NCBI GenBank assembly: GCA_024220525.1
Contig: JAMYWO010000057.1
Location: 26,991 to 90,990, forward strand
From: Cochliopodium minus
Taxonomy: Eukaryota; Discosea; Himatismenida; Cochliopodiidae
DNA: 64,000 bases
Reading direction: 5' to 3'
Below, piece after piece: positions 2,288-64,000 of this stretch. Below the pieces are notes generated by a model, which saw only the letters and a program-made list of their open reading frames with translations, made no database searches and had not been told where the DNA came from. The position numbers were made by a program, and so were the translations under genes. Every line of letters starts with the position of its first letter. The stretch's first letter is position 1.

Positions 2288-3124
2288 TTATTTTGCAAAT
2301 TGCATGAAGGCAGGGAAAAGAAGGGGAAGGAGAGAGGTAAGGAGAAGTGGAGAACCTCTGACTGTTTTGGTGAAGAATGCCTTAAGATCAGAGAAGATAA
2401 CCAAAATGAAAAACCTCAAATAAAGGAAAGATCTGTTCTTCCTTGAAAGGACATCTACTTGTTCTCTGAGTAAATTAAACAGAATTGGTAATCTAAGGAT
2501 TTAAAAAAAAAAAAAAATTAAAAAAAAAAATTAATTTTTGGATGAATTCTTACCTCAATAGAGTTACATTGAATAAAGATAATATTGATACTATTGTTTC
2601 GAAATAGGTTGGGTTGATGGATGGGAAGAAGCCGAGGATTGGAACAAATGAATGCAAGATATAGAACAAATTCTGCAATTGAATTTGTGATAGAAGGAGG
2701 ATTTTATCAGGGTTTCTGAGACTAAAGATTAATTCCATGAATTTCACTGTTTTATCGCTATTTCTCAGCAATTCAAATATTGATTTCTCTGATGATCTGT
2801 TTTTTTGGATTATATTCACACATTCTTCTAAATTGAATCCTATTTCCCAAAAAAAGATTAATAAAATATTGATGTTGGGATTTATTTTATCTTGATAATA
2901 AAAATGAAAATATGTACTGTTTATTTACCAACTGGGATGTATTTCAATTTTTGATTTCTTTTCAATGCAATTATAAAGGAGATAAGATGACATAACAAAT
3001 TGGTCATATCCCTTGATATTTTGGCTTTCAATACCATGGGTATAATTTTTGCTTTTTGGTTCATATTGATCAGATTTTCTAATCCCATCGCAAATCCTCT
3101 TTTGGATAAAGCTGATGCAAGCAT
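2288..3124 (-). CDS. Unrecognised helical protein
   Basis: Three exons on the minus strand: 3124-2929, 2827-2554 and 2492-2288, with consistent phases (1 and 2) and GT..AG introns. The protein is about 225 residues, mostly leucine-rich helix, ending in a hydrophobic stretch 'LLLTSLLPLLFPAF'. The ATG at 3124 is the first in frame, but the frame stays open upstream without another ATG, so a further 5' exon is possible. I do not recognise the family. It is convergent with the sacsin-like gene and only about 60 bp from its stop. Confidence 0.45.
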
Positions 3125-3363
3125 TATGATGTAATCATTCGATAAATTGAGACTATCAATTATGTAAAGAAAATGAAAAATTAAGAAATTTGAATAAAAA
3201 TATAAGTTTCCATTTACTTCATTTTTTTTATATATATATATTTTAAAAGATATATTTCATGAAGATAAATATTCTTTATTGTCCACATGTGAATCTTTTA
3301 ATTTTTTTTCTTTTTAAGGAATAAAGAAAAATTGAAATAAGAAGGGGAATTTATTAAAATATC

Positions 3364-4263
3364 TTAACGTCTGCAAATTCCAGTGACTCCATTAAGATAT
3401 GTGCAAGTTGGAGCACAAGGAGTCAAGTATTGTCTAAGAGAAAGGAAGACTCTTCCAGGTCTACGGCTATATCCTTGTCCGTTACCTCCACGTTTGTGAT
3501 TGTAATGTCCATTTCCATCATGATGGTTATCATTGTTATCCCAATGATCATCGTGTTCCCAATCGTGTTCTTGGTCGATATCGTTAAGATGGCAGCTGGC
3601 TACTGGTGCGCTGCTTTTGCAGTGTGGTTGAACATAGACAGAGTTAAGTTCGGTCCTGAAATGGTGGGTAGGAACGATGGAGAAGATAAATGGTTGGGTC
3701 CAGTTTCCAGTTACCTCATTTGCACCTTCGTATACTATTAAAACAAGAATGGAGGTAAAATATAATTTATAATAATTTTGAGTTCAAAATTTCTCTTATA
3801 ATTTTCTTGTTTTAATTTTTTTGGGTTACCTTCTACAATGTTAATGATGGATCTAAATCCACGGGTATAATAGTTATCAGGTTCTGGAATATGAACACAT
3901 ACAGCATGAGCATTCAAGTCATCAATAGGTGCTCCATTTACATCCAAGTTAAGGCATCCACCAGTTGGAACTTTTGCAATTTGGACTTTTATAATGGAAG
4001 AAATAAAATTAAATATGATATTTTTTTTTATGATAAGTTTTCAAAAAGTTACTTGATTGAGAATAAAAGTCTCTGCATGATCCTCTAAAATAGATTTTCT
4101 ATCAAAACATTTGAATTTTAAATTTGATAATAATTGTTTGTAGAAAAATTTTTACGAATATTAAATTTTCTAATGCCAATTCTCTAGTATCATCACTCTT
4201 TTCAATGAGGGATCCATAGCATATTGCCAAAGCAACCAATAATACAAATAAAATTTTGTTCAT
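3364..4263 (-). CDS. Secreted protein with His/Asp/Asn-rich tail
   Basis: Four exons: 4263-4156, 4098-4053, 3985-3830 and 3734-3364. The N-terminus 'MNKILFVLLVALAICYG' is a clear signal peptide. The middle carries 'GGCLNLDVNGAPIDDLNAHA' and scattered cysteines. The last exon codes for a polar stretch dominated by His, Asp and Asn (for example 'DQEHDWEHDDHWDNN'), followed by 'RRPGRVFLSLRQ' and three cysteines near the end. The His/Asp tract suggests metal or matrix binding, which is inference. The last exon is visibly GC-richer than the surrounding DNA. The exon 1-2 acceptor (4099) was chosen to keep the frame. No known family recognised. Confidence 0.6.
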
Positions 4264-4571
4264 TTTTTTTTTATATTTTTATAATTAATTTAAATTAAAA
4301 GGGTACTCTTTCAAATTTTTTAGGAAGTGCTTTATCCAAAAAAAGAGAACAAGTTTTTTGATCAGGAGATTATTGGATTAAATCTTTTTTTTTGAATTTT
4401 GATTGGATAAGGAAAATAAATTTATTAATAAATTTCACTTGAATCTCATATTATTTGTATTGGATGTATATTACTTATCAAATGGTTTTTATTGAGATAA
4501 TATGTAATTTTATGAGTTTATAAATCTTTTTTTCTAATTTTTTTCAAAATGCCAAAATTTTGAATAAAAAA
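4264..4571. other. Intergenic, divergent promoter region
   Basis: About 300 bp of A/T-rich DNA between the divergent secreted-protein gene and the F-box/ankyrin gene. It probably holds both promoters. No distinct element could be recognised by eye. Confidence 0.4.
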
Positions 4572-6386
4572 ATGAGAAATGAAAAAAGGAAGAGAGATTC
4601 AAGTGAAAGTGAAGAAAAGAAAAATAAAGAAAAATCAATCAAATTTGGTGCTTTTGACAATTTGCATAAAGATTTATGCATCCATATATGCTCCTTTTTG
4701 GAAATAGATTCGACATCCAAATTATCAAGGACCAATAAATGGTGGAATTCCAAATTGGACAATGATAGGGTAAAGAAAAACATTTAAAAATGAATTTCAA
4801 ATTCATTTTTTATGAATAAAGGTTTGGAAGAAATTCATTGTTGATTTAGAATTATATGAATCATATAAATCTGAGATAGGATCAATGAAGACATTTTTGA
4901 GAATGGGTAAGATTAATATTTTAATTTTTTCTTAGAACTTTTCAAAGATAAAAAAAAAAAAAGAAAAAGGATTGAAGATATTGAAGGAAATGGGATTCAA
5001 TAAAGATCCAAAAAAATTGATGAATGTATTAATAAAAAAAAATCTGGACAATTTGACAAGTAAATTTTTCTCTGAGAATTTTTAAATGTAAAAATAATGA
5101 AAAAAAAAAAGAACAAGGAATCTACACACTTTTGCATTCGGAATGTACAAATTGGGTATCAAGGCTTCACGTAGTAAAATTTGCAGTGGATTTCAGATGC
5201 GACGTGAATACGAAAGTAAGAAAGGAAGAATACGACGATTACTTCAATAGAACGGAACAGCCAAAGTTTATCAGACTTTCCACGCCTCTTTTGTTGCAAT
5301 GCGAAAAGAAAAACGTCAACAGCGAGATTGTAGAGTATTTGATAGACCATGGGTCTTATTGCAACGTGAGAAACAACAATGGAGACACTCCCTTGCATCT
5401 TTTGTGTGCTAAAGAAAATTCTTCTTTGAAAAGCATAAAAAAACTAATTGAGGGGAAAGCCTCTGTTAATATTATCAACGATGATATGAAACTTCCCATC
5501 CATTTCTCTTCTTCGCACAAATATGGAGGAGAGTTGGTGAAACTACTGATCCAAAACAACAGTGACGTCAATTCCAAGGACAATGACAAAAACACTGCTT
5601 TCCACTACATGTGCATGCGTCTCCCTGCTTTATCTTCTTTGGTCTCTCAAATTTCCACGGAGGATTTTGATTTCTCCATCAAGGGTAAAGAAGATAAGAC
5701 TCCATTGCACTTTTTCTGTATGAACCCTTCTCTCGATATTTCTTTTTTGAGTTTTCTTCTTGGGAAGGGCGTTTGCGTTAACGAAGTAGATGCAAAGTTT
5801 GATTTTTTTTTTTTTTCTTTATTACATTTTTTCAATTTTTTTAATTTTTTTATTCTTTATTTTTTATTTTTTCATTTTTTTTTTTTCTTCAAAAAAAGGT
5901 TGAACACTGCTGCACATTTACTCATCTCCAACAAAAATTTCTCCCTCCCTCTTTTGAAATTTCTGGTCGAGAAAAAGGTTGATCTTTCTCTTGGCAACAG
6001 TTTTGATTATACTCCTTTGCATTTCCTTTGTTCTGTCCACACCTTTGACCTCCCCACACTCCAGTTTTTTTTCGAGAACAAGGCTGACTTGAACGCAAAG
6101 AATTATGATCACTGCACCCCTTTTCATTTGTGTTCAGCTAAGAAAGAATTGTCACATGATATTTTTCAGTATTTTCTGGAAAATAAAGCTGATTTGAATA
6201 TAAAAGGTAAAAAAAAAACAAAAAATAAAAATTAAAATTGTTTTTTTCATTTTTTTTTTGGAACTATCCAAAGATAAATCTAACAATACCCCTCTTGGTT
6301 TGGCTCGTCATAATTTTGACTTGAAAAAGAAGATTAGAAAAAAACTCAACCTTGAGTTTGATCAATTTATTCAAAAGTTTAAATAA
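4572..6386 (+). CDS. F-box and ankyrin repeat protein
   Basis: Exons are read as 4572-4769, 4822-4906, 4964-5059, 5112-5796, 5899-6206 and 6274-6386. After a charged N-terminus comes an F-box: 'FDNLHKDLCIHICSFLEID' then 'SKLSRTNKWW'. From about residue 150 there are at least six ankyrin repeats, with repeated 'TPLHFLCS' and 'NKADLNAKN' type motifs. F-box proteins normally recruit targets to SCF ubiquitin ligases, and here the ankyrins would be the substrate reader (family knowledge). The 5797-5898 intron is poly-T and a multiple of three, so a naive translation would run through it as a false Phe-rich segment. The start is the first in-frame ATG. Confidence 0.75.
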
Positions 6387-11957: not shown

Positions 11958-12443
11958 TTGTTCAAAATTGAAATATTAGATGAGAATGAAAGAAATATCA
12001 AACAAAAATATTTTGTTTTAGAATGGGTTGAAGGAGATAATTTGGGAAATTTTTCTCCTAAAAAATTGATTTCTCAAAATAAATTTGAAAATGGAAAACT
12101 TTTTTGTGAAATGATGATTTATTTGTTTCAACAACAATTTTATTTTTGTTGATTTTGGAAGTTCACATTTTATTGGAGAGAATGGATTTGAAAAAGTAAA
12201 AACAAACACTCCTGATTTTAGCCTTCCTGAACAAAATACAATGTTTTTCGAGTGATTTTTATTCATTGGGAATAACATTTGATGTTGTTTTGAAAATTAT
12301 TGAACAAAACTTTGGAAAATTTAATTTATCAAGTGAAATGATTCAAAGAATGAAAAAGAAAAAAATGAAGAAAGAATTGGAGTTAATGAATGTATTCAAA
12401 TCATAAAATCAAAATACAATGACATTCCTCTTTTAAAAAACAN
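11958..12443 (+). pseudogene. Decayed protein kinase fragment (ROCO-kinase-like)
   Basis: A kinase domain can be read in pieces over several frames. The hinge is 'YFVLEWVEGDNL'. After a frame change come the DFG segment 'FVDFGSSHF' and the 'PDFSLPEQN' APE-like region; then, in a third frame, 'SSDFYSLGIT' and later 'ERIGVNECIQIIKS'. The catalytic loop (HRD) is absent, and no N-lobe lysine or glycine loop is seen upstream. The stretch before the hinge ('ILDENERNIKQ') resembles the matching part of the ROCO kinase at 17781-24201 ('ILDDSIRNIQQ'), so it is probably a dead paralog. It runs into the ambiguous base at 12443. Confidence 0.65.
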
Positions 12444-38268: not shown

Positions 38269-38975
38269 TTCATTTATTTTATTTATTATTATTTTATTAT
38301 TTTTTATTTTTATTATTTATATATTTTATTTTATATTCATAATTTATTCTTTTAAATTATTCTTTCTCATTTTTTTTTATTGTTAAGCTGCTATGTCACA
38401 ATTCTTCATTTTTATTTTTTATTTTTTATTTTTTATTTTAATCATTTTTTATTTTATTCATTTTTTATTTTTTATTTTTTATTTTTTATTTTTTATTTTT
38501 TATTTTTTATTTTTTATTTTTTATTTTTNNNNNNNNNNNNNNNNNNNNNNNNNNNNNNNNNNNNNNNNNNNNNNNNNNNNNNNNNNNNNNNNNNNNNNNN
38601 NNNNNNNNNNNNNNNNNNNNNNNNNNNNNNNNNNNNNNNNNNNNNNNNNNNNNNNNNNNNNNNNNNNNNNNNNNNNNNNNNNNNNNNNNNNNNNNNNNNN
38701 NNNNNNNNNNNNNNNNNNNNNNNNNNNNNNNNNNNNNNNNNNNNNNNNNNNNNNNNNNNNNNNNNNNNNNNNNNNNNNNNNNNNNNNNNNNNNNNNNNNN
38801 NNNNNNNNNNNNNNNNNNNNNNNNNNNNNNNNNNNNNNNNNNNNNNNNNNNNNNNNNNNNNNNNNNNNNNNNNNNNNNNNNNNNNNNNNNNNNNNNNNNN
38901 NNNNNNNNNNNNNNNNNNNNNNNNNNNNNNNNNNNNNNNNNNNNNNNNNNNNNNNNNNNNNNNNNNNNNNNNNNN
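38269..38975. other. Low-complexity DNA and assembly gap
   Basis: 38269-38528 is T/A repeat, ending in about ten TTTTTTA units. 38529-38975 is 447 undetermined bases. The 5' end of the 7TM gene and the start of the plus-strand gene at 38976 are hidden here. Confidence 0.95.
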
Positions 38976-47457: not shown

Positions 47458-47555
47458 AAGAAAATTTTTGAATAATCACCATTAAAACATTTTTTCTGAA
47501 AATATATTTTTTCGAATATTATATAAAATATTATATTAAAAAAATTGTAAACATA

Positions 47556-50500
47556 ATGAGAGGAATGTTACAAATCCTTTTAGTTTGTTCATTATTTTAT
47601 TGTCTAGCTCAAGGAATTCAAGACAATTCATTGACTCCTTTTTATGCTTATATCTCAAATGATAATTATACAAACATTGGAAATTTTTCTGGAAGCATTT
47701 TGGATGCTCAAATTTGGGATTTAAACTATGCCATCATGAAGTTGAACTCATCAATAATAAACGAAAACTTAATATACTTTTTGATATTCACAGATGGTTC
47801 GTATTCTGCCTCTTTCAATCTAAAAAACAAAAATTTGGGTTTGATATCTAATTCTTCATTTTTTGGAATATCACCCAAAAATAAGGTAAATATTTTGCAA
47901 GAAGAAAGTGAATTTTTTCTAGAATTTTCTGGGGGTGTTTTGAATGTAACCGGGATTACTTTCAAAGGATATTCTCAAAATATCTTCAAAATATCCTCTT
48001 CTCCTTCTTCTTTTTTCGAAGAATGTATTTTTACAGATAATACCTCTCCTTCTTTAATTTTCTCGGATAGCAATAATATTGTTTTGAAAAGGAATTATTT
48101 TGAAAATAATTCTATCAATGGTGATAACATTGGGGGATCTGTTCAATTTATTGAAAATAATGAAAATATTCAAATCTTAAATTCCACTTTTACGAATAAT
48201 TCTGTGGGGAATATCGCAAAGGGATCTTCCATTTACTTTTACACCAATAATTCTCTCATTCTTTTTCAATCTGTTTGCTTTTTTAATAATTCAGCTTACA
48301 ATTTTAATAATGCAGGAGGTGTTTATTTTGACAAGTAATTTTTTTTTATAAATTTTCTTTTAATATTATATTTTAATTAAACAAGTAATAACAAGAATGT
48401 TGCCTTTGAAAACTGTACATTTGGAAAACATGTTGCTCATGATGGAGCATCAATATATATATACAAGGAAAATAGAAACATAACTTTTGAAAGTTGTGTT
48501 TTTGTAAACAATTCTGCCAACTTTCATGCGAGTGTATTGTATGTTTATGAATCTAATAGTAACATTTCTTTTACCAAATCCAATTTTACTGGAAACTCTG
48601 CGAAAAGTAGTGGTGGAATCTTTTATATTCATGAACACAATAATCTTTTTTTTTTGGATAGATGTTTTTTTCAAAACAACATAGTAATTCCATTTTTATT
48701 TTAAAATAATAAATATTAAATATTTAATTTTGTTAAAAATAATTTTATTTGTAATAAATATTAAATTAATAATCTGAATATACTTTAGGCAGAAAACGGA
48801 GGGGTGGCAATATTTCACAACTCTGGATTAGAAATAAAATCATCTAGTTTTGTTAATAATACAGCAAAATCAAATGGAGGGTGCATTTATTACAACACAG
48901 AAGAAAATTCGGAAAATAGTACTTTTGTTTCTTTTTCAAACAAATGGGAAAACAATAGAGGAGGAGATGGCTCAGTTCTAGTGTTGTTAGGAAAAATAAA
49001 AGTGAGAATTGAAAATGATTTAGTTCAAAATAATGTGGCCAGTCAAACATCCGCTTTTCATTTAAAAACAGAATTTCCAATTCACCTTTACAATTCTTCT
49101 TTCTTTCAAAATTTTGGGAATGAAGGTTCCTCTCTTTATTTAGCTTCTTCAAACTCTTTTTGTTCCATTACTGTGAATAGCTCAAGTTTTTGTGAGAACT
49201 ATAGCAACACCAATGGGAGTTCTATTTATTCCCGTGATTGTATTCTCCTTGTAATATTTGAAAATCTTTTTTTTTATTTAATAAATCTCTTTCTAAATTA
49301 ATTTAGGTTGAACACTCCACTTTTAATTCTAATAACGCAATCAGTGGAGGATCAATTTACAGCAGATTGAATTTTACATCACAGTTTGTTAACATTTCTT
49401 CTTCAAATTTTAGGTAAACAAAATAAAAAAGTAGAACTTTTGCAATAAAATAAATTAATTAATATATTAAAATTTAAATTTTTTTGTTTTGAAAAAAGAT
49501 GTAATAAAGCAAATTATGGAGGGTCTATCATGATAGAAGGAAATTATGGAGAGAATAACAACCAAGAACAAAGTATAAAAGGGTGCAGCTTTAATGGAGA
49601 TGTAGGAATGGAGGGAGGATCTTTATTTATTTTTTTCACTTCTAATTCTCTTTCTTACAATGAGACAGATATCCCTTCTTTATTCACTATTTCCAATTGT
49701 AAATTTAACAATGTTGAAGCCTTAGGTAATGGAGAGTTGATATTAGGTAATGGAGGAGCAATGAAGGTAAATATTTTGTTGATTATTTTTTTTTTTCAAA
49801 ATTTTTTTTCATTACTTCAGGTTCATCTTCCCTTTTGGTTTAATGGAGAAAATTCAAATTTACTTTTATCTGTAATAGAAAATGTAGCAAATGTTTGTTT
49901 TTCAATTAATAATGGAGGAGCTTTCTATTTTGGAGATACTGGTCCTTCTGTCGATCTTTTGTCTCCCTTCCTTTCTTTTCATGTTGAAGGGAATACTTTT
50001 ACAAAGTAAAAAAAAAAAATTTTAATCTTTTTTTTTTTTTATTTCATGATTTTAATAGTAATCGTGCCCTTGGAGGAGGAAGCTTGTTTTGGAAGGTACA
50101 TTTTTTTTTTTTTCATTTTAATTTAAATTATTTTTTGAATTTTATTACACAAAAAAAAAAGAGTAATTCTTTTCTCCCTTTGAATTTATCCATTCCATCT
50201 CTAAATTTTAATCTTTCAAACTCTTTTAAAAATTCAACTGCCAACTATGGCCCTTTTTTTGCTTCCTCTCCTTTTTTTATTTCCCTTCTTTCTCCTTCCC
50301 TTTCTTCATCTTTCAAACTCCCTTCTTCCATTATTTATTCTCCCCATTCAATAAATATAGAATCCTCTCCCTTCATAAACAAAGTGATTCCTTTTTTTGG
50401 AGGAATAGAGTTTGAAATAACCTTTCAAGTAAAAGATTTCTATCAACAAAATGTAGAGTACATCTCTGAGAATTACTATCAACTCCCTAATATTCACTTG

Positions 50501-52978
50501 AAAATAAATGAAAGTAATAGCGATAATAGCATCACTCTTACTTCTCCTTATTCTAATAACACTGCTTCTGTCTTTAAAAATGGACAAGTTATTTTCAAAG
50601 ATCTTTTAATAAACATTAATTTTAACATTGAAAATAACATTTCTTTGGTTGCTTCTCTTTCTAGTTTTGATAGTTCTACCACTTTTGTTAATTATGCAAT
50701 AATGTTAAAAAATATGGGTTGCCCTCTCGGTTATAGGCTTGTAAAAGATATATTTGCTGGAGTAAATTGTGTTCAATGTGATTTTGGACAATATTCTCTA
50801 AATAATTCACAATGTTATCAATGCCCTTCTATTTCAAATGTAGAAGAAAATAATAATTATGCTTCTTGCATCTCTCCTTCTCCTTCTCCTATTCCAAATC
50901 CAACAAGTAATTTAATTCGATTTAAAAAAGGTTTTTGGATCTATCCTAATCATACAAATCCTGAAATTATTTTGAAATGTGGAAAAAATTCAAATTGTTC
51001 TCAAATTACTTGTTCTTCTATATATTCTAATTCTTCTCTTGACTGTTCTTTGGAAATACCAGTCAAACATAATTTTACATGTGTTGGTCATAATTTTACA
51101 TTTGGTTGTGGTATTTGTTATGAGGGTAAGTTTATTTCAAAATAGAATAATTTCTTTTTTTAAAAAATTCATTTTTTAAAAAAGGCTATACAGGTTTAGT
51201 TTTTTGTTAATTTTTGTATTATTATTTCAAATTAATATCAAAAAAAAAAGATTTTTTATGTAGTAAATGTAATTACGGATATTATAGGAAAAATAACAGA
51301 GCATGTGTGAAATGTGGTACCATGGGTCATAAGAAATTAACTGTTTTGATAGTTTTATCAATTCTAATCATTCTATTGCTCCTTTTTACAAAAAATACAT
51401 TATTTTTAATTATGGTTCAATTGATTCTCTTTTTGATTCTTGCCATTCTTGGAATGGCCACTTTATGGTATTAAGAAAAATTTTTCATTTTAAATGATAA
51501 TACTTATTTATTTGTTACAATTTACATAAAAGGGTTATTCAAATACAAGCACTCTTAGTAATTTTCATGTTAATAATAAATCAAAAAAAAAGCAGTTCAC
51601 ATAGATCGTCTCAAGGTCTGGTGAAAGTACTCATATTTCACCTCCAGACACTAAATTTACTTACTTCTTATATAACTTGGCCTTCTTCTTTTGAAAAAGT
51701 GTTTGGAGTTTTAAAATCACTAGATCTTCACTTGAATGGATTTGATTGTCTCTATTCAAAAAAATCCTTTCCTTTTTCTCCTCTCATCTCTTTTATTGTG
51801 AAAATGTTTCTCCCCTTTATTTTCATCATCTCTTTGATTTTGATAATCTTCCTTCAAAACTCGATTTCCAAATCTTGTAAAAAATACTTTTCTAAAAAAA
51901 ACTACAAACTTCCCAAAGAAATGAAAGACAATTTTATTTTTTCACAAGATGATGACTTATACTATTCGGGAGGTGAAGAACAAAGTGAGGGATCGATAAA
52001 TCAATATTTTGAAAAAAAGATAGAATGGTGGCCTACAATTTATAAAATAAGTCTTTTTGTTATTTACATATGTTATTTCGATCTTACTAAAACAATATCT
52101 CAAAATTTTTCTTGGAAGACTCAAACAGTCTCAAATTATAATGGCTTAATACCAAGTTACATTACAAAACATCCATACATAATTTGTAGTATTAATCCTC
52201 TCTTTCTTTCTATACTCATTACTTCTTCATTTTTTGCTCTTCTTTACATTTTTGGAATACCCCTTTTGTTTACTGTTTTACTCAAAAAATTTTCTTCACA
52301 AATTAAGAAAAATTTGGAAATTACTTGGCTTGGTTTTTATTATAAAACTTACAAAACCAAATACTTTTGGTATGAATTAGTTTGGTAAAATTTTTTATTT
52401 TTTCATTTCTTTTCTGAAAAAAAAAAATTAAATTAAACAGGATGTCAAGAAGAGCATTGATCGCAATTTTTTTCAATATTTTCCCAAACAACATCTATTT
52501 GAGAGAAAATGCTACAATTTTTATTCTGTTCTTTTTTATTGCTGTAAATCAGTTTGTCAGGCCTTTTAATACTTTTATTGAAAACATCTTTGAACTTATT
52601 TCTTCTTTGGTAATTATTTTTACATATATTATTCTTATTGATCACCATCAACCACCAAACAACTTGACAATACTAATCATAATTGCAAATGGGGTATTTT
52701 TGGCTTTTCTTTTCTTTTATCTCATCTTTCCTCTTGTCCAAAAATGCTTGAAAAAAAAAATAACTTTCAATTTTTTTGATCATCCAAAACAAAAAGAGTT
52801 AATTATACTTGAAAACGAAGAACTAAAAATTCAAAATGAAGAACATTTGAAAAACATTGAAGAAAAAGATCTCAAATTACTGAAAAAGAGAGAAAAGATT
52901 GAAAAAAAGGAAAAAATAATTAGTGAATTGATAAATGAAATGGAAGTTCTTAAAACAAAATTAAAAAAAGATAATTGA
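47556..52978 (+). CDS. Surface protein: beta-helix (pectin-lyase-like), Cys-rich stalk, multi-TM, coiled coil
   Basis: Starts with a signal peptide ('MRGMLQILLVCSLFYCLA'). A long region of right-handed beta-helix type repeats follows, with recurrent 'NNSA', 'GGSIY' and 'FENCTF' motifs and very many N-x-S/T sites, as in pectin-lyase-fold surface proteins. Next come a Cys-rich stalk with a GCC2/GCC3 or EGF look ('CVQCDFGQYSLNNSQCYQC'), then about eight TM helices including 'YKTKYFWYELVW' followed by 'RRALIAIFFNIF', and a cytosolic coiled-coil tail rich in Lys and Glu. This resembles protist multi-TM proteins with a TRP-like C-terminal membrane block. Likely a glycosylated surface receptor or channel; some junctions are provisional. 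Confidence 0.6.
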
Positions 52979-56630: not shown

Positions 56631-56720
56631 TAGAGATGTCCAAAAATATTACAACAGTTTAAAATTTGTTAGTAAACATTTTATATCCGCTAACAAAGTT
56701 GTAATATTTGGACATGTCTA
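56631..56720. mobile_element. MITE-like foldback element (mariner-type ends)
   Basis: A 90-bp near-palindrome. The left arm 'GATGTCCAAAAATATTACAA' pairs with the right arm 'TTGTAATATTTGGACATGTC' with one mismatch and a 2-bp gap, and an inner pair TTTGTTAG / CTAACAAA extends the stem. Both ends are TA, as expected for Tc1/mariner insertion. It lies 54 bp upstream of the truncated glycosyltransferase-MIR gene. A diverged copy is at about 58444-58522. Confidence 0.65.
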
Positions 56721-57775: not shown

Positions 57776-57776
57776 N

Positions 57777-57801
57777 ACTCGCTACGCTCGTAGAGCACTA
57801 G
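57777..57801. repeat. Partial copy of the 42-bp GC-rich repeat, at contig edge
   Basis: The first bases after the N are 'actcgctacgctcgtagagc', the 3' half of the 42-bp repeat found at 58622 and beyond. Its 5' half is absent. This supports a contig edge or join at the N. Confidence 0.8.
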
Positions 57802-57834
57802 ATTTTGGTTGAAAATTTATAATTTTTATTGTGA

Positions 57835-57970
57835 TTGGATGGATGGAAAAGTTTGGGTATAAGTTTTTTTGTTAGTGAGGTTGGGTTAGAAAAAAAAAAA
57901 ATTAAAAATAATTACTTAGGATGGATGGAATAAAAAGTTGCGGTATAAGTTTTTTTTTGTTAGTGAGGTT
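57835..57970. repeat. Direct repeat block A/B, copy 1
   Basis: Block A contains 'ggatggatggaaaagtttgg' and 'gttagtgagg'; block B contains 'ggatggatggaataaaaagt' and 'gcggtataagt'. Both recur in the same order at 59149-59270, bracketing the GC-rich repeat array. A weaker relative of the block is at 59296-59330. No coding in it. Confidence 0.8.
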
Positions 57971-58621
57971 TGGAAAAGATTTTATTTTTAAAAAATTAAA
58001 TTAGAATGAAAATTTTAATTTGCAAAACTTATTGAGATTAAAAAGATTGTTTCGAAATGTTTATTTATTAAAATGTCTGTGCTTTTTGTTAATGGAGTTT
58101 GGCTTTGAAAATGTAATTAAAATTTTTGAAATAAAATTAAAGATGATTTAAAAGTTTGTTTTCTTACCTAAATTTTAATTAAAGATGGGTTTGGGAAATC
58201 TAAAATTTATTTTGTTTAAAATGAAGCTCACTTCGTTTAGTGTGACTCTTCTCTTGTAGAGCTCTTTAATTAGGGGGGTGAATATTGATTAAATATAAAA
58301 ATAATTTGAAAAGTGTAAATTTTTTTTTAAATATTTAGGATTATTTTAATGTATACCTCACTTAGTTGGGAGTGAGTTGCTTCCAAGTTAAAGAGATTTA
58401 ATGATGAGAATTATTTTATAAAAATAATAAAAGAGCAAAAAAATAGGGATTACAACAGTTTATATTTTTTTAACAAAAATTTTATATCCTCTAACAAAAT
58501 TTGTAAATTTTGGAGAGGTATAGCAAAAAATTAATAAAAAATTTGATCAAAATTAATAATATTTTTTTTTATTTCTTCAAAAAATATTTAAAAAAAATAA
58601 CCAATAATTTAATTTCTTGAA
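57971..58621. other. Non-coding region with degenerate repeats
   Basis: No convincing gene. Contains diverged relatives of the 42-bp repeat at about 58225-58266 and 58353-58395 and a diverged copy of the foldback element. Otherwise A/T-rich. Confidence 0.55.
58444..58522. mobile_element. Diverged second copy of the foldback element
   Basis: Contains 'attacaacagttta' and 'ctaacaaaatttgtaaattt', matching 56649-56709, with degraded ends. It lies on the other side of the N at 57776, which supports both sides coming from the same genome. Confidence 0.5.
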
Positions 58622-59102
58622 TACCTCACTTCGTTCGGCGTGACTCGCTACGCTCGTAGAGCCATTTTTTTTGGTTGAAGATTTATAAATGTGGGGATTT
58701 TTATAAAATATTTGAAAAAAATTTTAAAAGAGAAAAAAAAATTTTAATTTTTTTTAATTTCTTGTATACCTCACTTCGTTCGGCGTGACTCGCTACGCTC
58801 GTAGAGCCCTTGAGTTGGTTGAAGATTTAAAAATAATGAAAAATTTGAATAAAATGCTAAAAGAGAAAAAAGAAATTTATAGAAAAAAATTGTTTTTTTA
58901 TTCAATTTCTTGTATACCTCACTTCGTTCGGCATGACTCGCTACGCTCGTAGAGCCATTTATTTGGTTGAAGATTTATAAATGTGGGGATTTTTTATTAA
59001 ATATTTTGAAAAAAATTTTAAAAGAGAAAAAAAAATTTTTATTTTTTTTAATTTCTTGTATACCTCACTTCGTTCGGCGTGACTCGCTACGCTCGTAGAG
59101 CC
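58622..59102. repeat. Tandem array of ~146-bp units with GC-rich 42-bp core
   Basis: Four near-identical 42-bp cores start at 58622, 58767, 58915 and 59061 (spacing 145, 148, 146). Each contains 'cacttcgttcggc' and the palindrome CTACGCTCGTAG, about 60 percent GC in a background of about 20 percent. Between cores is A/T-rich spacer with the shared words 'ttggttgaagattta' and 'ttaatttcttgta'. Only one base differs between core 3 and the others ('ggcat' for 'ggcgt'). Confidence 0.88.
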
Positions 59103-59148
59103 ATTGATTTGGTTGGAAATTTGTTTATTTTTTATAGGGCTTGGATGG

Positions 59149-59270
59149 ATGGAAAAGTTTGGGTATAAGTTTTTTTGTTAGTGAGGTTGGGTTTGAAAAA
59201 AAAATTAAAATATTTACTTAGGATGGATGGAATAAAAAGTTGCGGTATAAGTTTTTTTTGTTAGTGAGTT
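59149..59270. repeat. Direct repeat block A/B, copy 2
   Basis: Near-identical to 57835-57970, same order and orientation, starting just after the last 42-bp core. The pair brackets about 1.2 kb of repeat DNA. Confidence 0.8.
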
Positions 59271-59635
59271 TATTTTAATAAATAAAAAATTTATAAGATG
59301 GATGGTTGCAAAAGTAAAGGTATAAGTTATTTTTTAAATTGGAGTTCTTATAAATATTAATTAATTAGTTGGTGATTGGAAAAGTAAATAAGGTAATGAG
59401 AGTTTCCTAAAAAAAAATAATTTTCTTTTAAAGTTGAGGAGATGAATGATTGATTGGAAATGTTAAAAAGAATTTTTTTTTAATTTTGAAGTTAATTATT
59501 ATTAATGAGAAAGAATAGAAACTATAAATTTATAATAAAAAATTTGGTTTTTAAAAATTAATTTGGTAAATTTATTTAATAAAAAAAAAAAAGAGTTATT
59601 TTAAAATAAAGATAGATAATTATTTTTTAATTGAT
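59271..59635. other. Non-coding A/T-rich stretch
   Basis: About 365 bp between the second direct repeat and the endonuclease stop. Apart from a weak third block-A relative at 59296-59330, nothing is recognised. Probably the 3' flank of the endonuclease gene. Confidence 0.5.
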
Positions 59636-60822
59636 TTATTTGGTTAAATCAATGAAAATAGAGTTTTTGGAGGAAGGAGAGGTGGAAGAAGAAGTAGTAG
59701 TAGGTAAAGAAAGAGGGGAACGAGATGGAAAGTTTATTCTAAAATAAAGAGATTTAGGGAAAAGTTTGCAAGAGCATTTAGAATTTTTATTGCAATGTTG
59801 TCTACTCATGTTATCAACGTGAGATTCTAAAAGGAGATGATGAGGGTTGATACAAGCTGTATTGTGGCAAAGGTGAGAGGCTTCAAGTCTTTGGTGACTT
59901 TTGAGATTCTCAAACTTGTATTGGTTGGTATACCATAGAACGGCACGAGTGTGGGTAAAATGAATCTTTTGAAAGTCTATTTGAAAAGGAGAATTTGAAG
60001 TTTTACCTGAACAAGAATCCTTAGTTAATGATTGCCAGCAACCTGTTTCACTTTTAATATCAACATTCATCAAAATATTGAAGATTCTTATGGAAAGAGT
60101 TTTTGGATCTTTTTTGGTGATGATGTGAAGAATAGGATGAATTTCTGGATTTTCAAACATCTCAAATGGTACATTGAACACTTGGCTATTTAAATAACTA
60201 TGAATGAAATGTGCTAAAATATAAAATGATAAAGAAAAAATGAAAAAAATAAAGGAATTCAAATTTAAATATTTATTAGAAAAAATTTTTTAAAAAATTA
60301 AATAATAAATTTTTATTTAAAAAAATAAAAATAAAAAGTTTTAATACCTTTTTCTAAAGGTTGATGAACAAAACGAGTTCTTATAATAGGATGAGGGGGA
60401 TTATAAAAAGACTTTTCGTTTGTTCCTCTAAATATTTTTTCTTTTATTGAGGGTAGTTTTACGATTTGTTTGTCGTTATTGTTTTTAGAGGTGTTTTTTT
60501 TGTTGTGAAGAATAGTGCAAAGAGGATTTTTTAATGGTGTTGATTGTTTATCGACTTTCTCAATATTTTGTTTAGTAATTTCAAAGTTTTTTGGAAGAGG
60601 AGTCAAAGAGAAACTGTTGAAAGGTTGTAATTCATCCTCAACTTCAATTAACCTTTTGCTTTTTCTGTTTTTTGGAAGAGGAGGGAAATGGGATATTTTT
60701 GGAGGTTGTACATCGTCCTCAACTTCAATTATCCTTTTGCTTTTTCTGTTTTTTGGAAGAGGAGGGAAAGGAGAACTTTCAATAAGATGTTCATCTATTT
60801 CAATAGTTCTTTTGGTTGTCAT
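59636..60822 (-). CDS. His-Cys box (I-PpoI/zf-His_Me-like) endonuclease
   Basis: Two exons, 60822-60348 and 60213-59636, phase 1, about 350 residues. The C-terminal half has a zinc-binding endonuclease signature: 'SETGCW', then 'ASHLCHNTACINPHHLLLES', 'NMSRQHC' and 'CSCKLF'. This Cys/His arrangement is that of the His-Me finger (HNH superfamily) enzymes such as the homing endonuclease I-PpoI. The N-terminal half is basic and repetitive, with the unit 'PPLPKNRKSKR' followed by 'IEVED' present twice plus partial copies; it may be a nuclear-localisation or DNA-binding part. It is divergent from the Rep-like gene across the 51-bp array. Confidence 0.75.
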
Positions 60823-61743
60823 TTTTTGTTGAAAATCTTTTTTTTTAAAAAATTAATAAATTTGTTGGGGTTTTTTGTTTTCATGAGTTATAAATAAATT
60901 AATGTAAAAAGAATATTTTTTAAAATTTTTGGAAAGAATTTTATTGTTTTACTTTGTTATTTGTTTTTGTAGTTTTTTTTTTTTTTTTTTTACTTTTGTT
61001 TTTTTTCAAGATGAAAGTTTAAACTCAGTTTTCTAAGAAAATTCCTTGTTTATTTTTATTGTGAAAGTTTAAACTCAGTTTTCTAATAAAATTTATTTTT
61101 TTTTTTGTGAAAGTTTAAACTCAATATTCCAAGAAAATTACTAATTTACTTTTTATTGTGAAAGTTTAAACTCATTATTCTAAGAAAATTCCTAGTTTAT
61201 TTTTTTTTGTAAAAGTTTAAACTCAATATTCCAAGAAAATTCCTAGTTTATTTTTTTTTGTAAAAGTTTAAACTGATTATTCCAAGAAAATTCCTAGTTT
61301 ATTTTTTTTTGTGAAAGTTTAAACTCAATATTCCAAGAAAATTCCTAGTTTACTATTTATTGTGAAATTTTAAACTCAATATTCCAAGAAAATTCCTAAT
61401 TTACTTTTTATTGTGAAAGTTTAAACTCATTATTCTAAGAAAATTCCTAGTTTACTATTTATTGTGAAATTTTAAACTGATTATTCCAAGTAATTCCGAG
61501 TTTACTTTTTATTGTAAAAGTTTAAACTGATTATTCCAAGAAAATTCCTAGTTTATTTTTTTTTTGTGAAAGTTTAAAATCAGTTTTCTGATAAAATTCC
61601 TAGTTTAGTTTTTATTGTAAAAGTTTAAACTGATTATTCCAAGAAAATTCCTAGTTTACTATTTATTGTGAAAGTTTAAAACAGTTTTAAATAAATTAAA
61701 ATTATTAAAATTTGAAAAAAAAAAAAAAAAGTAAAAAACAAAA
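60823..61743. promoter_or_regulatory. Intergenic region between endonuclease and Rep genes; candidate origin/promoters
   Basis: About 920 bp between divergent starts. It holds a poly-T tract (about 60970-61000) and the 51-bp array. A single repeat-rich intergenic region between divergent genes is the usual place for origin and promoters in small replicons; the role here is inference. Confidence 0.45.
61011..61690. repeat. Array of about 14 units of ~51 bp with GTTTAAAC (iteron-like)
   Basis: Units start near 61011, 61061, 61107, 61158, 61209, 61260, 61311, 61362, 61413, 61464, 61514, 61566, 61617 and 61668 (last one partial). The conserved part is 'gtgaaagtttaaact' followed by 'ccaagaaaattcctagttta' and then a variable T-rich spacer. 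GTTTAAAC is an 8-bp palindrome, and most units keep it; those at 61362 and 61464 have 'attttaaac' and the one at 61566 ends 'tttaaaat'. The regular spacing is about five helical turns. Confidence 0.9.
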
Positions 61744-63765
61744 ATGAAAAAATTTATTGTTTTAGATGTTGGTTTTGAAGAAGAAGGTAAAAAAAATATA
61801 AAGTAAAGTAAAGATTTTAAAAAGAAAATAACAAATTGTTTTTTTTATAAAAGGAGGGGAGGATCAATCGAGGATTGGAAGAAAGAGAGCTTTGGAAAGT
61901 AAATTAGAAGTGGGTGATTTGGAAAGTGATGAAGTGGAAATTGTTGAAAGAATTGATCAAGTAGAAAGAGTGAGGGAAGAAGTTGAACGAAAAGAAATTA
62001 GGAATGGAGATGATTTGGATTTCTCAAGTGTCAATCATTTATTTGAAAGTTTCAACAAAGTGCAAATTGAAAACAAAAAACTTTCATCAAAAAGTTATGT
62101 AATTCTTGGAGAAACGAAAAATAAATTTTCAGAGTTTTTGTGTAAAGTGAGGAAAGCTTCTGATGGTATTGAACGTGTTGCGATGAGGTGTTTGGAAAAG
62201 AACAACAAGAGCAACATTTTGTGTCTTTTGACAATTAAGAGACAAGTAAAAAATTGTTTTCAAAAATATTTTAATTTAAAAGATGATATTTTTTGGGGAA
62301 TTTTTTATAAATTTATTTTAAAGTTTAAAGCAAAAATTAAAAAAATTTTTTTATGAAAAGAATAAAAAGTAGTTTATTTAAATTTAAAAATAAAAATTAA
62401 TTTAAACTTTTATTAAATAAAAAATAGAAAAGCTTGAGAAGAAATAGTTGGAGAAATCATCTTGGAATTCAAACAAAATCATTATTCAATATTGTAACAG
62501 CCAAAAATTTGAAGGATGAACAGTACAGGATGTTTGTGAATGAAGAAGGAGAGGTGATACAAGAGGGTTTGGATCATTTGATGGGAGTAGAAACAGTGTT
62601 GTTGAGCAAAAAAGAGCAAAATGCAAAGAAAATGAAAACAGATTTGGTGATTGATGAATTAAACAAGGGAAAAACGTTGAATGATATTAGAGTGCAATAT
62701 GCTTCATATGCGTTTCACAACCAACAAAAAATTGCAAACTGGCAAAAGTGGGTTTCAGAACAAAAAAGAAAACAAGGAAAGTTGGAATGGAATGGAATGA
62801 AATTTAATAACAAAGAAATTGAAAATTGGGTGAGAGAAAACATTGGTGTCGAAAAGAGAATGATGAGAGAAAAGCACCTGTTTATTCAAGGAGAAACATT
62901 GTTTGGTATAAAAATTTTATTTTTTATTTTACTTTTTATTTTTCAGCCAATTTTAAAAGAAAATTTTGAGTTTTTCTTTTTATATTTATTTTATAAAAAA
63001 TTTTTTTATTAAATTTTTTTTTTAAAATTAATTTTTTTTTAAAATTTTTTTTTTTAAATTTATTTTATTTTAAAAATTTTAATTAAGTTTTTCTTTTTAT
63101 AATTATTTTATAAAAATATTTTTTATTAAATTTTTCTTTTTAAAATTTATTTATAAAGATTAAAAATTTTCTGTTTATTATCTCATTAATATTTTAATGA
63201 TTAATTGTTTATTCTTTTTTAAAAAAAAAAAAATTAAAGATTAATTGTTTATATTTAAAGTGGTTTTAATTTAAATTTGGATTTACCTGTTTTGGGGTTT
63301 TTTAAATAATTAAGTTTAATAAAAACTTTTTCATTTTTTTATTTTGAAATAAATTTGATTAAAATTTTAAAAATAGGAAAAAGTAGTCTGAAACTATATT
63401 TGAAAAACTATTTCTATGTGGAGGAAGTCTCTTATATAGAAAGTTTTTATCCAGAATTTGATGTCGAGAGTGTAGAGGTGTTGTTTTTTGATGATGTGAG
63501 TGTGTCGAAAAGTAACGACAAAGACAAAAGAGACACAATCAAAAATTTGTTGTGTGGAAGTGGATGTGATTTACCAGTGAAAGGAAAGAAGTTGAAGTTG
63601 GAAAGGAACGTTCCAGTTATTTTCACAAGCAACAACAGTTTTGAAGAAGTTTTCAGGGGTGGTGGTATCCATATGGAGAGTTTGGAGAGTCGTTTCAAAA
63701 TCTGCTTGTTATCTGAACGTTTGACAATTCAAGGATATGACTACAAAAAACAAGAAGTGATTTGA
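61744..63765 (+). CDS. Rep-like protein with SF3 helicase domain (CRESS-DNA-virus-like), intron-containing
   Basis: Four exons: 61744-61786, 61854-62245, 62428-62905 and 63377-63765; about 433 residues; all phases fit. The C-terminal part has SF3 helicase motifs: Walker A with its glycine half (GETLFG) ending exon 3 and K-S-S opening exon 4 after a 471-nt intron; Walker B 'VEVLFFDD'; and motif C 'NVPVIFTSNN'. The region before it ('DLVIDELNKGKTLNDI', 'YASYAFHNQQKIANW') matches the linker seen in CRESS-type Reps. Further upstream, the places where HUH endonuclease motifs are expected read 'NILCLL' and 'FVNEEG', lacking the usual His pair and Tyr. An acidic N-terminus of about 70 residues precedes it. 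ATPase probably active; nicking probably not. Confidence 0.65.
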
Positions 63766-64000
63766 AAAAAAAATGGGGGGGTGGGTTCGGCTGGCCCAAT
63801 CCTCTCAATATTTAACACTTAAAAATGTTTGGGTTGGGGGAAACAAGGGACAACGTTCAAATTTGTTAGGCAAGCTTCCCAACCTAAAAGCTTTTTAAAT
63901 CAACGGTAGAAGACTTAGAAAATTTTCACATTTAACTTTGAGAAAAAATTTTTTTAATCCTTAAAAATTCGAAAAATATTTTTAGAATATTTAATAAGGA
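63766..64000. other. 3' flank with G-rich segments
   Basis: After the Rep stop there is a run of seven Gs, then 'tgggttcggctggccca' (a possible short hairpin) and a second G-rich block near 63830-63850. No gene recognised. The window ends in A/T-rich DNA. Confidence 0.45.

Follow-up and report, generated by a model that had tools for sequence, protein, structure and literature searches.

At the right end of the window (the whole 64-kb stretch of DNA that was analysed) lies an island, from position 57777 to about 63.77 kb, in which two divergent genes are arranged around a common upstream region. The divergent nuclease and helicase genes of the preliminary description proved to be real and correctly placed, and both are interrupted by predicted GT..AG introns, as had been proposed. 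The features of the island and its edges are as follows.

57776, no strand: single N, an assembly joint at which an RCC1-like exon breaks off and the island starts
57777-59635, no strand: repeat-rich left part with no recognised gene (plus strand G 311, C 127)
57777-57970 and 59082-59271, no strand: direct repeat of about 190 bp, 89% identity between the copies
58449-58522, no strand: host MITE-like repeat in degenerate form, matched at least 39 times on other contigs
58607-59122, no strand: 148-bp tandem unit, 3.5 copies, carrying a CTCACTTCGTTCGG...CTCGCTACGCTCGTAGAGC core
60822-59636, minus strand: His-Cys box (I-PpoI-like) nuclease gene, 350 aa, start codon at 60822, one predicted intron
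60586-60775, minus strand: 81-bp in-frame repeat, 2.3 copies, in nuclease exon 1, encoding a 27-aa repeat with the basic stretch PLPKNRKSKR
61012-61680, no strand: 51-bp tandem array, 13.2 copies, the common upstream region of both genes (87% matches, TRF score 944)
61744-63765, plus strand: SF3 helicase (Rep-like) gene, 432 aa, three predicted introns, SF3 motifs and a Parvo_NS1 match
63822-63997, no strand: host interspersed repeat at the right island edge, with matches on contigs C54 (84%) and C41 (86%)

The nuclease is encoded by two exons (60822-60348 and 60213-59636) on either side of an intron at 60347-60214, according to the predicted splicing. Its earlier assignment as an I-PpoI-like enzyme was borne out by a Pfam profile search, in which the protein matched PF05551 with E = 2.3e-11 (44.4 bits against a cut-off of 27), and by the I-PpoI chains in the PDB, matched over 35 residues with E about 1e-5 (1.3e-5). 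The catalytic core is kept, with ASHLCHNT...DN aligning with I-PpoI; the roles of the conserved catalytic His and Asn in nucleases of this type are those given in PMC9587614. Endonuclease matches were also obtained from PHROGs, and three weak matches to phage records (E 2e-3 to 4e-3) were seen. Within the 64-kb window no Rfam family, be it of group I introns or of rRNA, reaches its gathering score, so that the location in a mobile group I intron, a trait of His-Cys box homing endonucleases of the I-PpoI group, found no support here.

The helicase gene comprises exons 61744-61786, 61857-62245, 62428-62905 and 63377-63765, joined across GT..AG introns by predicted splicing; position 61854 is also possible as the start of exon 2. 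The SF3 motifs follow one another in order (Walker A GETLFGKS, Walker B VLFFDD and motif C TSN), the Walker A motif arising by the removal of intron 3. Parvo_NS1 (PF01057) is the only Pfam family above its cut-off, and marginally so: the whole protein scores 20.5 bits against a gathering score of 20 and the last exon 22.9 bits against the same cut-off (E = 4.7e-5), with a match that spans 72 of the 271 profile positions. None of nine decoys matched Parvo_NS1, one of them hitting another family at E = 0.0035, and in the control genomes PF01057 gave matches at E up to 1 in 6 of 14, none above the cut-off. DUF5906 stayed below its own cut-off, PHROGs gave nothing of note and NCBIfam nothing useful, and the PDB searches produced no match save one irrelevant ribosomal protein at E 1.1. 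Because the Parvo_NS1 and CRESS SF3 domains are mutually alignable, according to PMC10433990, the Parvo_NS1 match alone cannot choose between a parvovirus and a CRESS virus.

This protein had been taken for a CRESS-like Rep with an SF3 helicase. The SF3 part of that reading stands, whereas the CRESS part is not supported by the motif, origin and family tests. The HUH endonuclease motif (H-hydrophobic-H/Q) with Y-x-x-K is absent from the N-terminal domain of the helicase protein, the only strings of this kind in the protein being HNQ at residue 241 and YDYKK at 424, and no Pfam nickase family matches the N-terminus. Viral_Rep, Gemini_AL1 and RNA_helicase, three of the families that the preliminary description had named for a search, gave no match in the helicase. 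The CRESS nonanucleotide NANTATTAC occurs on neither strand of the island, which is weak evidence because, at the density found in the host (13 sites over the two strands of 57.8 kb), no more than about 1.4 would be expected in the island. Five short island stretches were folded in the search for an origin stem-loop and none was more stable than shuffles; a pattern scan for CRESS Reps that could serve as a comparison set retrieved none. A degenerate nickase domain below detection may be present in the N-terminus. By eye, the length and layout of this domain are compatible with a degenerate HUH domain, an observation backed by no tool result.

The repeat-rich intergenic region described earlier corresponds to the 51-bp array, whose unit has a palindromic core, AGTTTAAACT. 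Allowing up to three mismatches, the unit pattern has 12 matches in the genome, all inside the array, and its backward control has 0. No dispersed copies of the GC-rich repeat in the left part were found in the host: of seven matches listed besides the query, one (L018) lies in the island and the other six are without the core.

The strand composition of the island is new evidence beyond the preliminary description. Between 57777 and about 63.77 kb, G is abundant and C scarce on the plus strand, in the two divergent genes as well as in their four introns and in most of the DNA between genes. The G/C skew of 57777-64000 is 0.377, against -0.129 to 0.093 in 104 overlapping segments of the same size from the rest of the 64-kb window; three overlapping 3-kb segments of the island give 0.37-0.41, and 28 non-overlapping host segments of 3 kb from the same contig give -0.166 to 0.114. 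When counted in 250-bp bins, the skew is positive in 21 of 24 for the island versus 108 of 230 for the host. It is positive in each gene, in every intron and in the non-coding parts other than the 51-bp array, the sole large part of the island without it (-0.04). The fourfold sites of both genes hold 46 G and 6 C on the plus strand (p = 1e-8 for G:C), together with 117 A and 56 T; this excess of A over T at silent sites is contrary to the T excess that deamination of cytosines on the G-rich strand would, in its simple form, produce. A coding effect was rejected as the source, the sign in the island being independent of gene direction. On another contig, a 3-kb stretch (L040) has a skew of -0.408, which is explained by one repetitive Ser/Thr/Pro-rich ORF on one strand. 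Skew produced by transcription of the two genes should flip with gene direction, yet their fourfold sites and introns share the same sign, so that this transcription is probably not its origin. A strand bias independent of gene direction is a trait of asymmetrically replicating replicons, and the asymmetry seen here is better explained by asymmetric replication in the past than by transcription.

Both edges of the island are bounded by N, at position 57776 and, beyond the right end of the window, in 10,844 bases from 64001 onwards that are all N; a scaffolding error is therefore possible and, given these joints, neither the extent of the island nor its chromosomal linkage is proved. An extrachromosomal replicon or viral contig from this nucleus, scaffolded at the N joints and still free, would agree with the interruption of the RCC1-like exon by the single N, with the long run of N on the other side and with an island composition that differs from that of the sequence sampled to either side of it. 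Such an artefact is rather unlikely, as a host MITE-like repeat lies inside the island, a host interspersed repeat is contiguous with its right end and the two island ends are without overlap of note. It is also opposed by the repeats shared with host sequence (about 144 kb compared), for which the island, with 3 matches, is on a par with four equal host segments (4, 0, 0 and 2). The same two host repeats make a contaminant from another organism unlikely. When compared with the majority of 10 other copies, the MITE-like copy shows four pyrimidine-to-purine and four purine-to-pyrimidine changes, and is thus unbiased on 8 informative changes; the right-edge repeat shows no C loss. No terminal direct or inverted repeats of note were found at the island ends. 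The small circular virus or plasmid whose layout was first suggested finds support in a strand asymmetry like that of asymmetrically replicating DNA, but a free plasmid is less well supported: because of the host repeats inside and at the end, an integrated, now chromosomal element, another option offered at that time, is the better fit.

We favour, with roughly even confidence, the view that the island goes back to a small nuclear replicon or virus, once copied asymmetrically and now chromosomal. Copying of the ancestral element would have been of the rolling-circle or strand-displacement type. The 51-bp array may have been its origin and initiator-binding region, with the units as iterons, and also a two-way promoter; the helicase would have bound and unwound this array, and the nuclease would have supplied the nick or break priming replication or insertion. 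The element would have integrated later, leaving the skew as a fossil of its earlier life. A more specific proposal, which we consider quite doubtful, is a nuclear replicon of a new type in which nicking moved from the HUH domain (missing or inactive in the SF3 protein) to the divergent His-Cys box nuclease, with both proteins acting on the 51-bp iteron origin. If the favoured descent is right, strand composition can expose former replicons in eukaryote chromosomes even where protein divergence defeats classification, the pairing of a helicase with a homing nuclease would join the possible copying modes of small DNA elements, and the question whether homing nucleases can act as replication nickases would gain a concrete example.

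Neutral decay at 5% divergence would be expected to leave about 6 stops (2.2 + 4.0) over both genes, and 0 are observed. This absence of stop codons is a weak argument, tied to the neutral age of the insertion, for a recent integration or for selection acting on the proteins. The open frames would also suit a domesticated host locus, in which two old captured genes serve the host, the array is a promoter satellite of the ordinary kind and a local non-replication process accounts for the skew, as would the introns in both genes, the host repeats inside and the failure to find a second copy of the nuclease or helicase protein in the readable 44.65-Mb genome. Domestication is nevertheless unlikely in view of the plus-strand sign, which the introns share with the fourfold sites of the two genes, contrary to what transcription in gene direction should give, and of the MITE-like copy, which is unbiased on its few changes; a one-way long transcript across the whole island may still produce such a skew. 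A homing or transposon-like mobile element, whose nuclease would cut a target to spread, as proposed for KolobokP in PMC9587614, and whose helicase would aid replication in transposition, is very unlikely, since the I-PpoI-like nuclease on the strand opposite its partner gene and the direct repeats in the left part of the island are set against the failure to find a second copy of either protein, terminal repeats of note at the limits of the island or a match to any transposase family in the five ORFs that were scanned.

The descent from a nuclear replicon or virus can be placed beside several known systems. The collections searched gave no relative of the gene pair and hence no phylogeny, and the papers listed by the literature searches include no description of an SF3-plus-His-Cys pair, which is not proof of absence. 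Parvovirus NS1 is alike in its Walker A, Walker B and motif C and as the only Pfam family above cut-off, and unlike in the weakness of the match, in the N-terminal nickase not found here, in the three predicted introns of the helicase and in a partner gene that is a nuclease, not a capsid. As to the traits of a whole parvovirus, namely the NS1 nickase domain, a capsid gene and terminal hairpins, no nickase domain was found, the five ORFs scanned contain no capsid family and the island ends at N. With CRESS-DNA Reps and their endogenous copies, reported from Entamoeba, Giardia and other protists in PMC3198968, the island shares the SF3 domain, the divergent layout round an intergenic region and the eukaryote genome, but it is without HUH motif, nonanucleotide, CRESS Pfam match or capsid family in the scanned ORFs. 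In KolobokP transposons too, as described in PMC9587614, a mobile element's main gene is accompanied by an I-PpoI-like nuclease encoded on the opposite strand; unlike here, that main gene codes for a DDD/E transposase, and long direct repeats lie at the element's ends. A precedent for spliceosomal introns in the genes of DNA viruses of unicellular eukaryotes is provided by the intron-rich mirusviruses, which, according to PMC12768974, differ in being large and giant viruses with homing endonucleases within introns. I-PpoI and the other His-Cys box homing endonucleases have PF05551 and the conserved core in common with the nuclease, and the Didymium HEG, according to PMC9548176, has a spliceosomal intron in its His-Cys box gene, comparable to the one predicted here. 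The present nuclease departs from them in its helicase partner, in the lack of a group I intron or rRNA Rfam match in the window and in its 27-aa N-terminal repeats, in which PLPKNRKSKR may have a role in nuclear localisation.

The island lies on contig C57 (JAMYWO010000057.1; 189,414 bp of a 44.65 Mb assembly in 598 contigs), of which the window covers 26991-90990, and contains a His-Cys box (I-PpoI-like) nuclease gene and a Rep-like SF3 helicase gene, placed divergently on either side of a tandem array. Its features, those of the adjoining host DNA and the assembly joints are as follows.

12443, 37387 and 57776: assembly joints, single Ns
38529-38975: assembly joint, 447-base N run
~56634-56720: second copy of a MITE-like repeat (short host hairpin), in the RCC1-like host gene region adjoining the island
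58449-58522: degenerate copy of the MITE-like repeat (hairpin, ~75-90 bp), inside the island
59636-60822, minus strand: nuclease gene, two exons, 350 aa
61012-61680: array, period 51, 13.2 copies, 87% matches, score 944 (TRF)
61744-63765, plus strand: helicase gene, four exons, 432 aa
63822-63997: host interspersed repeat at the right edge, found at 2 other places, with matches on contigs C54 (84%) and C41 (86%)
L036 1501-1675 and L037 1501-1613 (sampled host loci outside the window): the 2 other places of the right-edge repeat

All four predicted introns of the two genes have GT..AG borders, and the predicted splicing model is favoured because removal of helicase intron 3 yields a Walker A motif spanning the exon junction. 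The nuclease matches PF05551 in Pfam (E = 2.3e-11) and I-PpoI in the PDB (E ~1e-5), and the block aligned with I-PpoI keeps the catalytic His and Asn, as named in PMC9587614. An 81-bp in-frame repeat within exon 1 encodes a 27-aa repeat whose basic stretch, PLPKNRKSKR, may act in nuclear localisation.

The helicase carries Walker A, Walker B and motif C. Parvo_NS1 was the sole Pfam family over the cut-off of 20 bits: the last-exon ORF scored 22.4 bits, its trimmed form 22.9 and the whole protein 20.5; none of nine decoys matched this family, and one reached E 0.0035 with another. A six-frame genome search with PF01057 placed the helicase site at 20.7 bits (E 0.0035), the same search giving matches under the cut-off, with E up to 1, in 6 of 14 control genomes. 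A parvovirus-type SF3 helicase is thus a lead rather than a filing, and Parvo_NS1 and CRESS SF3 domains can be aligned with each other according to PMC10433990. The preliminary description had called this protein a 'CRESS-like' Rep; the label fails because the N-terminal half showed no Pfam family over the cut-off, no PDB relative and no HUH motif, a defining feature; a strongly degenerate domain might go undetected in these tests.

The plus strand of the island is rich in G (57777-64000: G 1058, C 479), with a skew of 0.377, or 0.389 if ended at 63765, and of 0.37-0.41 in its 3-kb windows. The rest of the window, in 104 overlapping windows of island size, ranges from -0.129 to 0.093; the extremes are -0.166 and 0.114 in 28 non-overlapping 3-kb windows of C57, and -0.158 and 0.165 in eight loci on other contigs, of which one was short and another contained 1362 N. 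Ten further 3-kb windows, drawn from five more 6-kb samples on other contigs, comprise nine between -0.089 and 0.189 and a single one at -0.408, so that strong skew alone is not unique to the island. This last window lies in host locus L040 (contig C31), within a one-strand open frame of 1052 codons (2844-5999), with Ser/Thr/Pro-rich tandem repeats, that accounts for the local skew of -0.41.

What distinguishes the island is a skew sign independent of gene direction. The same strand is G-rich in both divergent genes, in all four introns and in the non-coding DNA except the array, the sole large part of the island where the skew is absent; among 24 bins of 250 bp, the skew is positive in 21. 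Plus-strand fourfold sites read A 74, C 1, G 20, T 26 in the nuclease and A 43, C 5, G 26, T 30 in the helicase; coding-strand totals for seven host ORFs are G 52 and C 82. Such a bias would not arise from a process linked to transcription of this gene pair; asymmetric replication can produce it.

Several observations suggest that the island is chromosomal. Outside C57, at least 39 matches to the MITE-like repeat are spread over 39 contigs; the search gave at least 46 altogether, of which seven, counting the query, fall inside the island on C57, with 40 of 251 candidates scored. In an alignment with ten other copies, from which two matches shorter than 55 bases were left out, 11 sites of the island copy depart from the majority of the ten, against 3 to 14 in the others; the four pyrimidine-to-purine and four opposite changes of the island copy reveal no bias, in small numbers. 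The right-edge repeat shows no loss of C either, with four C gained and one lost by the island copy at the sites on which the other two copies concur; in L037 this repeat directly adjoins a MITE-like copy. As neither repeat shows the bias, it seems to end at the host repeat and to be older than the MITE-like insertion. Against 144,046 host bases the island gave three matches and four equal-sized host segments 4, 0, 0 and 2, and so it shares repeats like host DNA.

These features fit a former replicon that is now within a chromosome. This reading is less than certain, as both edges are bounded by N: on the left a single N (57776) interrupts an RCC1-like exon, and to the right of the window 10,844 bases read N. 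Comparison of the island ends gave no terminal repeat of note linking them. The single Ns at 12443, 37387 and L006 2985 adjoin low-complexity repeats; one in L037 does not.

In the readable sequence of the genome, N stretches being unsearchable, the helicase last exon matched its own site and one chance-level site (E 1.25), the full protein its own exons only, PF05551 a single site, and PF01057 one site over the cut-off and one under. The array-unit pattern has 12 matches, all inside the array. No confirmed relative was obtained for the gene-pair proteins among viral contigs or for a nuclease piece among prokaryote genomes, nor any relative of the helicase among plasmids and phages; the nuclease gave three weak phage matches. 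As these collections hold few eukaryotic sequences, such absence carries little weight. Published work describes Rep-like genes in protist genomes (PMC3198968), a Didymium His-Cys gene bearing a spliceosomal intron (PMC9548176), a mobile element pairing an I-PpoI-like nuclease with a transposase (PMC9587614) and intron-rich viruses with predicted nuclear reproduction (PMC12768974); the literature searched yielded no description of a His-Cys box nuclease paired with an SF3 helicase.

The component parts and the strand bias are observed, and from them we infer how they acted. The array, where TTTAAA is invariant in all 14 units cut (the last otherwise degenerate), would most likely have been an initiator-binding region and two-way promoter, with the helicase most likely unwinding DNA there and the nuclease probably cutting DNA, thereby priming replication or insertion. 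Both frames are open where 2.2 + 4.0 stops are expected at 5% neutral divergence, which is mild evidence of selection and depends on the age of the insertion.

Outside the island, 4 of 10 ORFs scanned match Pfam at E <= 0.01 (ankyrin, kinase, RCC1, ubiquitin hydrolase). The successive open frames at 47472-52978 resemble a multi-exon gene for a large membrane protein that has an Asn-/Ser-rich repeat-like part and hydrophobic C-terminal stretches; one piece (48789-49298) was without a Pfam match. To the right of the N gap, a coding-like stretch at L006 845-3080 (C57 from 101835), one frame of which had no Pfam match, contains tandem protein repeats (TIDEISKYKEHLSNSQWQSLVSLF) and, after them, a P-loop-like stretch, and may be Crinkler-like.
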